From Firmicutes bacterium HGW-Firmicutes-15 (GTDB lineage Bacteria > Bacillota > Syntrophomonadia > Syntrophomonadales > Syntrophomonadaceae): 64,000 nt of DNA. Each line of letters opens with the position of its first letter. The first letter of the stretch is position 1. Location: assembly GCA_002840245.1 (NCBI GenBank), contig PHAA01000007.1, forward strand, positions 124,001 through 188,000. Reading direction: 5' to 3'. The notes under the pieces are model-generated. The model made no database searches. It was given only the letters and a program-made list of their open reading frames with translations, and was not told the origin of the DNA. The position numbers and the translations under genes are program-made. This document shows, one piece after another, positions 8,052 to 13,036 of the stretch.

Positions 8052-9308
8052 TTGGAACAGTTTAATCTACAAGATCTAGCCACTGGTATTGATACAGTCT
8101 GGGTTCTGCTGTGTGCATCGATGGTGTTTTTCATGGAAGGCGGATTTGCGTTTTTGGAGGCTGGCTTCATCAGCGCTAAAAACTCAATTAATATTGTCAT
8201 GAAGGTTTTTACGGATTGTACAGTCGGAATGCTCAGCTATTGGGCGGTTGGTTTCGCAATCATGTATGGCCTTGACCAGGGAGGGCTGTTTGGCAGTACT
8301 GGCTTTTTTATCGGGGGAGACTTGGGGCACATTAAGTTGCGCATTCCCATTTATGCTTATTGGCTTTTCCAGGCAGCATTTGCAGTTGCGATGGCTTCCA
8401 TTGTTTCTGGTGCAGTAGCGGAGCGAATGAAATTTGGTCCTTACATTGTCTATACAGCCTTGGCCGCAGGTCTTATTTATCCTGTCGCGGGACACTGGGT
8501 ATGGGGCGCAGGTGGATGGCTGTCACAAATGGGTATGTTGGATTTCGCTGGATCATCTGTCGTGCATGCTGTCGGGGGATGGAGTTCACTGGCTGCGGTT
8601 ATGGTCTTGGGAGCCCGTAGTTCGAAATATAATGAAGATGGCAGTATCAATTTCATGCCGCCCCATAATTTGCACTTGGCCTTCTTAGGGACATTTATCC
8701 TCTGGTTCGGGTGGAACGGTTTTAATGCCGGAAGTTCTCTTACCGGGCTGGACAGCAATATTGCCAGGATTGCCCTTAATACCAATTTAGCCGCAGCCAG
8801 CGGGGGTATGCTGGCCACCTTCTATACTATGTTTAGGTGGGGCAAGGCCGATCCCAGTATGGTAATTAATGGTTCGCTTGCAGGTTTGGCGGCTATTACC
8901 GCAGGGTGTGCTTATGTTAGTCCGCCGGTTGCAGTATTTATTGGAGCTGTCGCTGGTGTTCTGGTTGTCCTGGCGGTTGGGTTCTTTGATCGACGGCTTA
9001 TGGATGATCCTGTTGGCGCTATTGCTGTACACGGCGTGAATGGAACATGGGGTGTACTGGCAGTGGGCTTGTTTGCCGAACATGGGGGTCTTTTTATGGG
9101 CGGCGGGTTCAAGCTTTTAATCGTCCAGACTCTGGGGGTTACGGTGGTATCCTTATGGGCCTTTGGTATGACCTATCTTATTTTTACACTCCTGAAAAAA
9201 AGCGTTGGCATACGAGTCAGCCTGGAAGAAGAAATTAATGGCTTGGACATTGTCGAGCATGGTATATCTGCCTATGCAGGTCTTGACAGCGCCAGCGCAG
9301 AAGGTTAA
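8052..9308 (+). CDS. amt: Ammonium transporter (Amt family)
   Basis: The 418-residue membrane protein has the eleven-helix hydrophobic profile of Amt/Mep channels, which conduct ammonia/ammonium into the cell. The signature DFAGSSVVHAVGG (about residue 160) includes the first pore histidine, and AVHGVNGTWG (about 320) the second. The Phe gate region FLEAGF is near the N-terminus. The start is TTG at 8052 with a GGGGGAGG Shine-Dalgarno. A PII gene follows about 100 bases downstream, the usual amtB-glnK pairing in which PII blocks the channel when nitrogen is plentiful. Confidence 0.96.
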   Translation: MEQFNLQDLATGIDTVWVLLCASMVFFMEGGFAFLEAGFISAKNSINIVMKVFTDCTVGMLSYWAVGFAIMYGLDQGGLFGSTGFFIGGDLGHIKLRIPIYAYWLFQAAFAVAMASIVSGAVAERMKFGPYIVYTALAAGLIYPVAGHWVWGAGGWLSQMGMLDFAGSSVVHAVGGWSSLAAVMVLGARSSKYNEDGSINFMPPHNLHLAFLGTFILWFGWNGFNAGSSLTGLDSNIARIALNTNLAAASGGMLATFYTMFRWGKADPSMVINGSLAGLAAITAGCAYVSPPVAVFIGAVAGVLVVLAVGFFDRRLMDDPVGAIAVHGVNGTWGVLAVGLFAEHGGLFMGGGFKLLIVQTLGVTVVSLWAFGMTYLIFTLLKKSVGIRVSLEEEINGLDIVEHGISAYAGLDSASAEG

Positions 9309-9404
9309 TGTTGCTCGCTCTGTCTGGTAACGGTATAATAAAAATAAGGTCTTATTACAGTGCCCATTGAGAGTCGCAACTTAAATGGACGAGGAGAGGT
9401 TTAT

Positions 9405-9743
9405 TTGAAGAAGATAGAGGCTATCATCAGGCCGGGCAAATTGGATGAGGTAAAAGTTCAACTCGATAAAATCGGAATTCGGGGTATAACTGTCTATGAT
9501 GTCAAAGGGAGAGGACTGCAACGGGAGCAGAAGCAATATTACCGCGGACAAGAGCACACAGTAGACCTTTTCCCTAAGATAAAGGTAGAAATCGTTTGTG
9601 AAGATGCATTTGTAGAAAACATTGTTTCCACCATCCTTGGTATCTGCAAAACTGGGCAAGTCGGGGACGGGAAAATATTTGTGTATCCTGTAGAGAGAGT
9701 AATACGTATTAGTACTCGCGAAGAGGGCACTGCGGCAATCTAA
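9405..9743 (+). CDS. glnB: PII nitrogen regulatory protein (GlnB/GlnK) with His at position 51
   Basis: PII trimer subunits bind ATP/ADP and 2-oxoglutarate and regulate Amt and nitrogen enzymes. The TTG at 9405 after GGAGAGG gives exactly 112 residues, the family length, beginning MKKIEAIIRP; the longer GTG-initiated frame from 9360 is rejected. Conserved regions are VKGRG (34-37), the T-loop YYRGQEH (45-51), and KTGQVGDGKIFV (about 79-90). Tyr46 is kept but the canonical uridylylation residue Tyr51 is His, so uridylylation as in enteric bacteria is not expected. It follows amt directly and probably acts on it. Confidence 0.95.
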   Translation: MKKIEAIIRPGKLDEVKVQLDKIGIRGITVYDVKGRGLQREQKQYYRGQEHTVDLFPKIKVEIVCEDAFVENIVSTILGICKTGQVGDGKIFVYPVERVIRISTREEGTAAI

Positions 9744-9795
9744 AGTCAGTAAATATTCCACCCGGATTAAGGCAAGTGTTCTTATCTCGATAGCA

Positions 9796-9824
9796 TTGAT
9801 TTTTCATAAATATCGTGATATACT
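9796..9824 (+). promoter_or_regulatory. Sigma-A-type promoter between glnB and the dapB leader
   Basis: TTGATT, 17-base spacer, TATACT. It predicts a start near 9831 and heads a structured stretch that ends in an intrinsic terminator at 9937. Confidence 0.6.
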
Positions 9825-9839
9825 ATTTATGTTATTAAT

Positions 9840-9937
9840 ATCAAATATTGGTATTCGGCTGAGCGAACAAATCATTCGCTTTCAACAGATTTGATTTGTG
9901 GGTGAGGAACTCGTTTACTGAGTTTGTCACCTTTTTT
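9840..9937 (+). ncRNA. Candidate structured leader or small RNA with a pseudoknot
   Basis: Downstream of the 9796 promoter a 6-bp hairpin (AGCGAA / TTCGCT, 9862-9880) exposes a 7-base loop CAAATCA that is fully complementary to TGATTTG at 9892-9898, which would form a pseudoknot. It is followed at once by a terminator (GGTGA..AACTC / GAGTT..TCACC, then six T, 9901-9937). I know no family that matches. It may be an independent RNA of about 105 bases or the first of two regulatory modules before dapB. Confidence 0.45.
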
Positions 9938-10065
9938 ACACAAAGACGATATTTTTATTCTGAAGAAGCAATATGGAAGGTAATATAGGTTGGAATAGCA
10001 TCAGCTGGATTATGATTAGGTCTTATGGCGAATATTAAAACAATAAGGATTTTGTAAAAATTAAT

Positions 10066-10180
10066 AATACGCTGAATCCAGAAATGGAACGGGAGAACCA
10101 ACTATTGGGGTGAATCCTGACATTAGTCAGGTAGGGTTAACTTTCGACCCGAATCCGTCAGCTAATTTCGTAAGCGTTGA
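10066..10180 (+). promoter_or_regulatory. ydaO-yuaA (cyclic di-AMP) riboswitch
   Basis: The stretch contains the conserved ydaO aptamer blocks in order: CGCTGAATCC, GGGAGAACC, TTGGGGTGAATCC, a small stem, GGTAGGG, TTTCGACCCGAATCCGTCAG and GCTAA, closed by a P1 helix ACGCT / AGCGT (10069-10073 with 10173-10177). The class binds c-di-AMP and usually turns genes off. The 3' strand of P1 is complementary to the 5' arm of the following terminator, giving a plausible antiterminator. Confidence 0.92.
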
Positions 10181-10224
10181 GAGTGAAGGTGATTGATTAT
10201 GCAATATTAGTCATGCCCTTTCTT

Positions 10225-10257
10225 AACGCTACGGTTAAATACCGTAGCGTTTTTCTT
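10225..10257 (+). terminator. Intrinsic terminator of the ydaO riboswitch
   Basis: Perfect 11-bp stem AACGCTACGGT / ACCGTAGCGTT with a 5-base loop and a T-rich tail, 27 bases before the dapB start. Its first six bases can pair with AGCGTT at 10173-10178, so terminator and antiterminator are mutually exclusive. Confidence 0.92.
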
Positions 10258-10283
10258 TATAATAATGAAATGGAGGTTTTTCA

Positions 10284-11144
10284 ATGATAAGCATATGCTT
10301 AGTGGGACTTGGTAAAACAGGAAAAGAAATTGCAAAAGCAATCATGGAACAAAATGATTTGAAATTAGTGTCAGTTGTTTGTAGTCCTAATAGCAGCAAA
10401 ATCGGTAAAGATTTGGGCGAATTAATAGGATGTGTAGAAACGGGAATTATCATTGAAAGTTCGGATCATATTGAACAAGTGGTATTTAAGTCTCATCCCG
10501 ATGTTGTTGTAGATTTTTCAAACCCAATTGCAACAATGAAAAATGCAAGAATATTTGCCAGAATGAAAGTGAATATGGTTATTGGTACAACAGGTTTTTC
10601 TGAATTTGATATACGAAAGCTATTAGTTTTAACAAAAAAGAATCATACCGGAATTGTTTATGCACCCAACGTAACATTAGGCGTGAATGTGCTTATGCTC
10701 TTAAGTAACTTGGCAGCCAATATCTTGAATAATTATGATTTCCAAATTACTGAAATACATCACAAGCATAAAAAAGACTCACCTTCTGGTACTGCTTTAA
10801 AAATTGCCAAAGAAATCGAAAAAGGATTAGTATCATCAGGCTTGGAGATTAGTAATGAAAATGACATACCAATTAATGCTATTCGTGCGGGTGGCGTGGT
10901 TGGCAAACACGAAGTTATGATTGTTGGGGAAGACGATAAAATCGAAATATCACACGAATCATTTTCAAGAAGAGCTTTTGCTTTGGGGGCAATCAAGGGC
11001 ATTAGATTTGTACATGGTAAATCGGGCTATTTTGAAATGAATGACGTTTTAGATCTAAAAAAAGTGCTCGGTGATTATGTGGATAAAGAGGATACTAATA
11101 ACAAAAAAAGACATATGTACTACGGCACAAAAAATATTATCTAA
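10284..11144 (+). CDS. dapB: 4-hydroxy-tetrahydrodipicolinate reductase DapB
   Basis: The 286-residue protein has the N-terminal dinucleotide-binding motif VGLGKTGKEI, the VVVDFSNP segment, IGTTGF, and the catalytic stretch ITEIHHKHKKDSPSGTAL, which holds the proton-donor His and the substrate-binding Lys and SGTA. DapB makes tetrahydrodipicolinate for diaminopimelate (peptidoglycan), lysine and, in spore formers, dipicolinate. The ATG follows GGAGG. No other lysine gene is nearby. The AT-rich codon use and the unusual c-di-AMP riboswitch directly upstream set it apart from its neighbours. The C-terminal extension after about residue 265 is lysine-rich and atypical. Confidence 0.9.
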   Translation: MISICLVGLGKTGKEIAKAIMEQNDLKLVSVVCSPNSSKIGKDLGELIGCVETGIIIESSDHIEQVVFKSHPDVVVDFSNPIATMKNARIFARMKVNMVIGTTGFSEFDIRKLLVLTKKNHTGIVYAPNVTLGVNVLMLLSNLAANILNNYDFQITEIHHKHKKDSPSGTALKIAKEIEKGLVSSGLEISNENDIPINAIRAGGVVGKHEVMIVGEDDKIEISHESFSRRAFALGAIKGIRFVHGKSGYFEMNDVLDLKKVLGDYVDKEDTNNKKRHMYYGTKNII

Positions 11145-11203
11145 TTAATCCTTCTGCTTCGCATTCTTCATCACCTGCGGAAAGATTTTATTGGATGTCT
11201 AAG

Positions 11204-11240
11204 GGAACTTGCTGCCAGGTTGGCGGCAAGTTCCTATTTT
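11204..11240 (+). terminator. Terminator between dapB and the DUF4153 gene
   Basis: Stem GGAACTTGCTGCC / GGCGGCAAGTTCC (one mismatch) with a 5-base loop and TATTTT behind it on the plus strand. It lies at the converging ends of dapB and the DUF4153 gene and overlaps the latter's stop region. Confidence 0.75.
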
Positions 11241-13036
11241 GCAGATGCAGGTGCGCCAAACATAACAAAGATACTGTAGTCAACACCAGAATCAGAGTCA
11301 GTACCATAGGTTACATTGACATTTTGGAGCATTATCCGAAGCTTGTAGCCATCCTTTTCAACATCAATAGTCATTTTTTCAGGAGCCAGGGCTTCTTTAG
11401 GATTATTCCCGATTCCGGAGAGGGTTTTAGTGAAATCGTAGAGGCCCGTTCCAACTAGCTCAACCCCATCCGTATTCTTTACCGACACAAGCACCTCTTG
11501 GGGAGATAACCGTTCAAAGCTAAGCTTGTATTTTACACTGCTTACCTCAAAGTCTAACGAGGGTTGATTGGACTTATCCATTCCCCTATTCGAGTTGGTA
11601 TTAATTAAAATATCATAGCCGCTAATATTTAATGGCTTTTGCATATCAATGTTGGCAAAGAAGTAGTTGGAATCGCCTCTCACACCGCCATAAGCCGGTT
11701 CAAAGCCCAGCGTACTTTTCATTTTATCATTATTGAATTTAAAATCACCCGGCAGCCATTTAATGTATTTAATATAACTGCGATTGTCCAGGTAGGCTAG
11801 TATACTTGTTGATTCAAGCCTTAAATTCATAGGTACCTCTGCCTTAGGGCTGATTATTCCGTCAGCAAGTATACCTTCTGTTTTGAGCATGCTTTCAAGC
11901 CTGGTTATCTGGCTAACCCGTGATACCGTGAACGCATCTACAGGCGGTATGACCGAAAATATGGCAAAACCAGCTGCAAGCAATGCAATAATGCCGTTTT
12001 TGGATACCGGTTTGAAGCTGAGCGCGACACCGCAAACCAACGAGAATACCCCGAAGAGCGTAACATAATAGCGCGACTCCGTAATCCCATAGGCATTCAA
12101 ACGTATTGCAACTGAGATAAGCTGCATAATCACCACCGGAATTAGTACCTTGGGGAAAATTAATCGGTACAATTTAGCAAAATGATTTTCAAGCCGGCTT
12201 GAAAGGACATATATAGTAAGTCCTGCAGCTGAATATGCCAGCACCATAACTCCTAGCTGTCCAGAAGGCCATTTAAAGGTCACTAGAATTTTAATGAAAT
12301 AAGCAGCCAATACCAACGTATAAGTAGCTACCAGCGGAATCGCAATATATGAAATCAGTATTTCCAGGAATCGAGGATAAAGCGCCGAACTTTGTGCGTA
12401 TTCACGCTCGGTTTCATATTCCGAATTGTAGCGTGGCAGCAGAGATAAGTAATAAAGTGTTGCAAAAAGCACCCATATGATAGTCATCATATATCCGTAT
12501 GAATCACTGTTGACCTTGAAAAGCAATATGTCAATTGCTGCAATAATACTGGCACAGCCACCTGAGAGAACGCCTGAAAACAACACGGATGTAAATGCCG
12601 ATTTGAAATGAGTTAGAGCGATTCCGTTGAAATCAGATTTGCTCTGGTATGATGGCACCCATAAAAAGGCACAGAACATGGCAAAAACAGCCACAAAAGT
12701 ACGGGTCACAACCTCAAAACTAATACTAGGAGCCGCCAATATAATCAGGTAATAACCCACAGTAATTAGTGCGGATACTCCGTATACTGCAATGCGCATT
12801 TTCAACAGCCGATCAAACCGTTCACAGGTGAACTGAGCGGCAACTCCCAGAAATGAACCTAGCAAGAAGGTAAACATTAGTTTTTGTGTAATCAGGTCCG
12901 GTTCTTTGTGCAGGGAAATCATATAACAAATCAGGATCGAAGTACAGACCAGACATATGACTGTCAGCGGAAAGCGCTCAACAGCCTCAAATATCCTCTG
13001 GGAAGCACGTACGATAGCTTTGGTAAAGCGGTTCAT
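11234..13036 (-). CDS. DUF4153 family polytopic membrane protein
   Basis: This 600-residue protein has an N-terminal half with about ten to twelve hydrophobic segments (residues about 20-400) and a soluble, probably extracytoplasmic C-terminal domain. The profile, together with the central LLPRYNSEYETEREYAQSSALYPRFLEILISYIAIPL region (LLPRYNS and YPRFLEILISY visible), matches DUF4153. The role is unknown. The ATG at 13036 has a GGGGAG Shine-Dalgarno. It is transcribed convergently with dapB and divergently from the serine dehydratase genes. Confidence 0.8.
   Translation of the reverse strand: MNRFTKAIVRASQRIFEAVERFPLTVICLVCTSILICYMISLHKEPDLITQKLMFTFLLGSFLGVAAQFTCERFDRLLKMRIAVYGVSALITVGYYLIILAAPSISFEVVTRTFVAVFAMFCAFLWVPSYQSKSDFNGIALTHFKSAFTSVLFSGVLSGGCASIIAAIDILLFKVNSDSYGYMMTIIWVLFATLYYLSLLPRYNSEYETEREYAQSSALYPRFLEILISYIAIPLVATYTLVLAAYFIKILVTFKWPSGQLGVMVLAYSAAGLTIYVLSSRLENHFAKLYRLIFPKVLIPVVIMQLISVAIRLNAYGITESRYYVTLFGVFSLVCGVALSFKPVSKNGIIALLAAGFAIFSVIPPVDAFTVSRVSQITRLESMLKTEGILADGIISPKAEVPMNLRLESTSILAYLDNRSYIKYIKWLPGDFKFNNDKMKSTLGFEPAYGGVRGDSNYFFANIDMQKPLNISGYDILINTNSNRGMDKSNQPSLDFEVSSVKYKLSFERLSPQEVLVSVKNTDGVELVGTGLYDFTKTLSGIGNNPKEALAPEKMTIDVEKDGYKLRIMLQNVNVTYGTDSDSGVDYSIFVMFGAPASAK

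Follow-up and report, generated by a model that had tools for sequence, protein, structure and literature searches.

A c-di-AMP riboswitch on a second dapB gene, probably preceded by a divergent sodium riboswitch, in a Syntrophomonadaceae bacterium

Introduction

A stretch of 64,000 nucleotides (the window) from Firmicutes bacterium HGW-Firmicutes-15, contig PHAA01000007.1, carries an aptamer of the ydaO type in front of a gene for 4-hydroxy-tetrahydrodipicolinate reductase, dapB. This arrangement raises the question of why an enzyme of the lysine pathway should be controlled by c-di-AMP, and which product of that pathway is being supplied. The initial annotation of the locus saw here a direct tie between c-di-AMP and the supply of diaminopimelate, lysine or dipicolinate. 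The tie itself had already been described, as tandem Na+-I/c-di-AMP riboswitches on dapB of Acetivibrio cellulolyticus (White et al. 2022; PMC9337991, Extended Data Fig. 6). Since the c-di-AMP/dapB pairing has been published in a related bacterium, the window provides a further example and not a new principle. For a second tandem, which precedes ablA in Dehalobacter sp. CF, Na+ was shown in vitro to increase read-through of the first terminator, and c-di-AMP to lower read-through to under 5% (PMC9337991). In a review, the table lists five tandem representatives and the text six (PMC9481103), and we found no further report of a ydaO-dapB pairing in the open literature.

Here, we describe a computational analysis of this leader and of the gene that it precedes. 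What is new is a dedicated clade of DapB isozymes, its recurrent linkage to ablA(B), the split placement of these genes in this genome, and a leader whose Na+ element is divergent. The greatest novelty, an undescribed leader RNA, is found outside the window.

Results

A covariance-model search placed a c-di-AMP (ydaO) riboswitch aptamer at 10060-10190 of the forward strand, scoring 111.8 bits against the RF00379 gathering score of 38, with model positions 1-134 all covered and no non-canonical pairs flagged in the RF00379 alignment. The E-value of 7.7e-26 excludes a chance match as its source. The ydaO aptamer recognized in front of dapB by the initial annotation is therefore a real element; its start lies 6 nt before the position given earlier (10066), and the distance of about 220 nt from the start of the aptamer to the ATG was as claimed. 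A terminator scan and folding identified terminator T2, an 11-bp stem at 10225-10251 (+) followed by TTTCTTTATA, with a U-rich tail extending to about 10257. T2 was the sole terminator-like site in a scan of 9200-11400, and its fold (-17.6 kcal/mol, z -6.0) was equalled by none of 200 shuffles.

The 3' P1 strand of the aptamer (10169-10182, +) doubles as the 5' strand of an antiterminator: CGTAAGCGTTGAGA, at about 10169-10182, is complementary to TCTTAACGCTACG, at about 10222-10233 in the 5' arm of T2. This duplex was computed at -16.9 kcal/mol, compared with -6.6 +/- 2.1 for shuffled sequences, none of which was as good in 300 trials. In the nascent RNA preceding the T2 3' arm, the antiterminator fold reached -54.9 kcal/mol, as against -38.8 with the aptamer pairs enforced, in ViennaRNA energies that include neither ligand nor aptamer tertiary contacts. 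The expression platform thus comprises a terminator and an antiterminator and is mutually exclusive with the aptamer, as had been proposed. Because the P1 3' strand pairs with the T2 5' arm, ligand should switch dapB2 (as we call this gene) OFF; and because the nascent RNA prefers the antiterminator, the ligand-free leader should be ON and the c-di-AMP-bound leader OFF, by transcription termination. This modelled behaviour agrees with the OFF-on-ligand logic put forward in the initial annotation.

Additional elements are found upstream. An amt gene and a gene for a P-II (glnK-type) protein occupy 8052-9743, directly before the switch, and a cobalamin riboswitch (103.1 bits) is found on the reverse strand at 2381-2566. 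A possible promoter (TTGATT-17-TATACT, the -10 sequence being preceded by TG) was located at 9796-9824 (+) by a consensus scan (9/12 matches); it is a weak candidate because such sites are at least as frequent in shuffled sequence as here. A permissive Rfam search of 9700-10300, together with folding, revealed, at 9857-9932, a Na+-I-like element and a terminator that were absent from the initial annotation. The element (9857-9911, +) matches the Na+-I (DUF1646) riboswitch model RF03071 at 25.7 bits (E 0.0032 in 601 bases), which falls short of the threshold of 40.5. It is the sole RF03071 match at E <= 1 in the whole 3.47-Mb genome (E 0.0044) and sits 150 nt upstream of the c-di-AMP aptamer; the chance of such a match within 400 nt upstream of either of the genome's two ydaO elements is about 1e-4. 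It keeps 25 of the 32 strongly conserved letters of the family, 8/9 pairs of P1 and, with mispairs, 5/7 pairs of P2.

Terminator T1, at 9900-9932 (+) with a U tract to about 9937, folds at -17.7 kcal/mol (z -3.9; one of 200 shuffles equally good). The 3' end of the Na+-I-like element forms its 5' arm, the two overlapping at 9900-9911 in the arrangement of an ON switch, and the same overlap occurs in relatives L075 and L077, in which full-score Na+-I and c-di-AMP tandems precede homologous genes. The leader therefore reads Na+-I-like element (below threshold), T1, c-di-AMP aptamer, T2. We read the region 9857-9911 as a Na+-I riboswitch homologue of uncertain function; a sodium-sensing switch, worn or divergent, probably lies ahead of the c-di-AMP switch on dapB2.

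Given its score and imperfect P2, the element may have lost ligand binding, and it is quite conceivable, if somewhat less than probable, that only the c-di-AMP switch is functional, the upstream element being a decayed relic and T1 simply terminating amt-glnK transcription. The gap between 25.7 bits and the cut-off of 40.5, the P2 mispairs, and the lack of a Na+ element in L074, the closest relative of DapB2, are consistent with decay. Against it stand the retention of so much of the conserved core, the overlap of T1 with the element just as in the full-score tandems, and the rank of the element as the best Na+-I match of the genome. We therefore consider a Na+ AND NOT c-di-AMP gate to be the likely logic of the leader.

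The regulated gene, dapB2 (10284-11144, +), follows a GGAGG ribosome-binding site at 10272-10276 (+) and apparently forms a single-gene transcription unit, the next gene lying on the opposite strand. Its full-length product of 286 amino acids scores 228.1 bits with the TIGR00036 dapB model (equivalog cut-off, 122 bits), contains both Pfam domains, DapB_N and DapB_C, and has an intact catalytic HHxxKxDxPSGTA motif; GTTGF and HHKHKKDSPSGTA are likewise kept, and the nucleotide loop reads GxGxxG. An identity as amine or diaminopentanoate dehydrogenase was rejected, NF040740 giving only 36.7 against a cut-off of 400. Four dapB homologues are present in this genome, which rules out dapB2 as its sole dapB. 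The copy on contig C4, in a lysC-asd-dpaB-dpaA-dapB operon without ydaO, is the housekeeping gene. The other two copies belong to a related type, dapB'; one closes a ydaO-ablA-ablB-dapB' cluster on C77 (ablA 624 bits, ablB 280 bits), and the other stands alone on C37.

The dapB' clade (L013:5764-6552(-), L014:5270-6058(-), L101, L106, L143, L146 and others) ranges from Lysinibacillus to Bathyarchaeota, and its genes are found in abl operons, preceded by ydaO (L171, L101) or by the new leader RNA described below. Both copies in this genome pass the dapB cut-off; dapB' products have lost GTTG, carry F in place of H160 and lack the P of PSGTA; their reaction is probably altered.

A scan of public genomes identified 13 close relatives of the window DapB, with 44-74% identity, in Acetivibrio, Pseudobacteroides, Herbivorax, Ruminiclostridium, Anaerobacterium, Clostridium magnum and other Clostridia. 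RF00379 lies directly upstream in 12 of these, as well as in the more distant relatives L087 and L088. The initial annotation had named homologous dapB genes devoid of this leader as evidence that would count against it; within the clade, basal L084 is the only such gene. A quick maximum-likelihood tree clustered the window DapB with its clade, apart from all housekeeping copies (support of 85-96 on the relevant branches), and a second dapB was present elsewhere in all 15 searched genomes carrying a relative of the window gene. No ydaO was found at any of 20 housekeeping dapB loci, most of which had only about 500 nt of flanking sequence. The window-type P1-strand antiterminator is not a universal device, as the exact duplex is missing in most relatives. 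In C. magnum (L080:5865-6001) and Clostridium sp. OS1-26 (L082:5862-6001), there is no terminator because the aptamer abuts the dapB2 ribosome-binding site, which suggests translational control of dapB2 by the c-di-AMP aptamer in these two species.

In sequence identity, the window aptamer is closer to that of L075 (85%) than to the second aptamer of this genome (69%), and the DapB2 type was not found in any of the 60 relatives sampled. On this comparative evidence dapB2 and its switch probably moved together, by horizontal transfer from Acetivibrio-like Clostridia.

The neighbours of dapB2 bear on its role. The enzymes encoded by ablA and ablB make N-epsilon-acetyl-beta-lysine, a compatible solute. 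Directly downstream of dapB2 lie ablA and ablB in L077, L078, L081 and L086, and a partial ablA in L075; across related genomes, ydaO recurs before lysine or glutamate 2,3-aminomutase genes. Because of this linkage, the placement of the genome's own ablAB under ydaO, and the association of ydaO with aminomutases, osmolyte lysine is the best reading, and the role of dapB2 is most likely to provide lysine for protective solutes under salt stress. Against this reading, the window has dapB2 by itself, at a distance from ablAB. N-epsilon-acetyl-beta-lysine accumulates under ammonium stress in Methanoculleus from biogas digesters (PMC12776343); given this, the position of amt and glnK beside the switch may or may not be coincidence.

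The c-di-AMP switch could instead supply diaminopimelate to peptidoglycan, low c-di-AMP raising DapB2 so that the wall is reinforced under osmotic stress, a reading that White et al. put forward for the A. cellulolyticus gene (PMC9337991). Neither ablA nor ablB is seen in L074, L076 and L083, three genomes that have ydaO-dapB2, and Clostridium sp. OS1-26 has only ablA, in an apparent lysine-fermentation operon; some of these assemblies are incomplete metagenomes. The product there must be lysine itself or diaminopimelate. However, ablA follows dapB2 in 5 of the 13 relatives (with ablB in four), wall genes visibly follow it in none, and the ablAB genes of the window genome are under its other ydaO. 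We regard a role in wall synthesis as unlikely.

Improbable, in our view, is that DapB2 does not reduce HTPA at all and acts on another imine of osmolyte metabolism. Its GxGxxG loop, where housekeeping DapB has GxxGxxG, and the related dapB' clade, devoid of GTTG and of one catalytic histidine, could be so explained; DapB2, however, retains GTTGF and HHxxKxDxPSGTA and at 228 bits passes the dapB equivalog cut-off. DapB makes the precursor at the branch point adjoining dipicolinate synthesis, which would favour a supply of dipicolinate to spores, but this role is rejected as very improbable because a separate dpaAB-dapB operon, without ydaO, exists, and no dapB2 relative lies beside sporulation genes in the flanks read. 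Of the link from c-di-AMP to precursor synthesis initially envisaged, the switch on a genuine DapB thus stands; a general supply of diaminopimelate or dipicolinate does not, given the separate operon dapB and the housekeeping loci without ydaO.

A recurrent leader RNA surfaced while weak Na+-I matches in relatives were being checked. It comprises, in order, ACGGUCAAAG, a GAAA-loop hairpin, GGGG, a second hairpin, AUGAGAA, and a P2-like CGGCUUACUGGGGUGGGUAGCC followed by a terminator; CUUACUGGGGUGGGUAG is the Na+-I P2 hairpin that it has in common with that riboswitch. Its 5' domain is larger than and different from that of Na+-I, with a GAAA loop and an apparent receptor. A covariance model seeded with 8 sequences found members in this genome at C37:21155-21269 (-), C77:8556-8670 (-) and C59:22457-22560 (+), and elsewhere at loci L209-L237 (for example, L226:1501-1617 in genome G026). 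Of 63 genomes from the class, 24 had matches; outside the class, matches were found in only 4 of 299 genomes from the phylum, one of them weak. Among 31 members, in an alignment fitted to the model, two-sided changes affect 21 of 23 pairs and the covariation score is 0.629, compared with 0.303 +/- 0.016 for shuffles (0/500 as high) and with no more than 0.14 when the pairings were slid; the seed alignment of 8 sequences agreed with this. The GAAA loop is present in 24/31 members and a sequence resembling what we take to be the consensus of the 11-nt tetraloop receptor in 16/31.

The genes that follow encode CitMHS/ArsB/NhaD-like permeases (about 17), NhaA, DUF1646 proteins, a sodium/calcium exchanger, a Na/Pi cotransporter, ion antiporters and, in this genome, dapB'. 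The RNA also precedes four aminomutase genes, with a ydaO in between (G007:C27, G016:C31, G034:C21 and G034:C18; L169, L170, L179 and L240); the first three are of the glutamate 2,3-aminomutase (eam) type, just below the curated cut-off, and the fourth ends at a contig end. No matching family was found in Rfam 15, and a literature search found no paper describing this RNA. Searched at E 0.01, the window gave no match to the model, R1, and the Na+-I-like element there was rejected as a member. From the gene context and the shared hairpin, we infer Na+ as the putative ligand of this RNA.

Discussion

Our analysis suggests that two switches in the leader together gate transcription of a dedicated DapB isozyme for osmotic stress, which supplies lysine for osmolytes, a composite reading that we hold to be probable. 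At high Na+, the Na+-I-like element would be stabilised, blocking T1 and allowing polymerase to pass. Under hyperosmotic stress, when c-di-AMP is low, folding and homology predict that the P1 3' strand would pair with the T2 5' arm, precluding T2 and permitting transcription of dapB2; at high c-di-AMP, P1 and then T2 would form, and transcription would halt. Gene neighbourhoods suggest that the extra DapB would increase flux to lysine, the substrate that AblA and AblB would convert to N-epsilon-acetyl-beta-lysine; their genes are under the other c-di-AMP riboswitch of the genome. More broadly, we lean towards a salt response wired by three RNA sensors: the c-di-AMP riboswitches, the divergent Na+-I element, and the new leader RNA, which in Syntrophomonas-like bacteria would represent a new architecture of alkali-ion riboswitch. 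Conserved and absent from Rfam 15, this RNA may be a further sodium-sensing riboswitch. What c-di-AMP controls here is, on this analysis, not the housekeeping dapB but a dedicated isozyme, horizontally mobile and linked to genes for beta-lysine osmolytes, a result that weighs between two published readings, wall and osmolyte, and makes the choice testable.

The locus resembles several known systems and departs from each. Like the ydaO/yuaA riboswitches of RF00379, it has a full, high-scoring aptamer, a downstream terminator and an OFF architecture, whereas its target is a lysine-pathway enzyme and not a transporter or wall hydrolase, as already noted for A. cellulolyticus. The upstream element shares with the Na+-I riboswitch (RF03071) a 5' hairpin that carries UUUCAA, a GGGUG within the P2 region and an ON-type terminator overlap, but it is one G short of GGGGUG, its P2 is imperfect, and it scores 25.7 against 40.5. 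DapB2 has the domain order and catalytic motif of housekeeping DapB and passes the TIGR00036 equivalog cut-off; it differs in forming a separate clade, in its GxGxxG loop (housekeeping, GxxGxxG), and in being always an extra copy in the genomes checked. The closest parallels are the tandems of A. cellulolyticus dapB and Dehalobacter sp. CF ablA, with the same succession of Na+-I element, terminator, c-di-AMP aptamer, terminator and gene; the predicted Na+ AND NOT c-di-AMP logic is common to them and the window, which also has its target, dapB, in common with the former. Unlike these tandems, the window has a Na+ element that is divergent and under the Rfam cut-off, its gate is predicted from sequence, and its dapB2 stands alone, with ablAB located elsewhere under a second ydaO.
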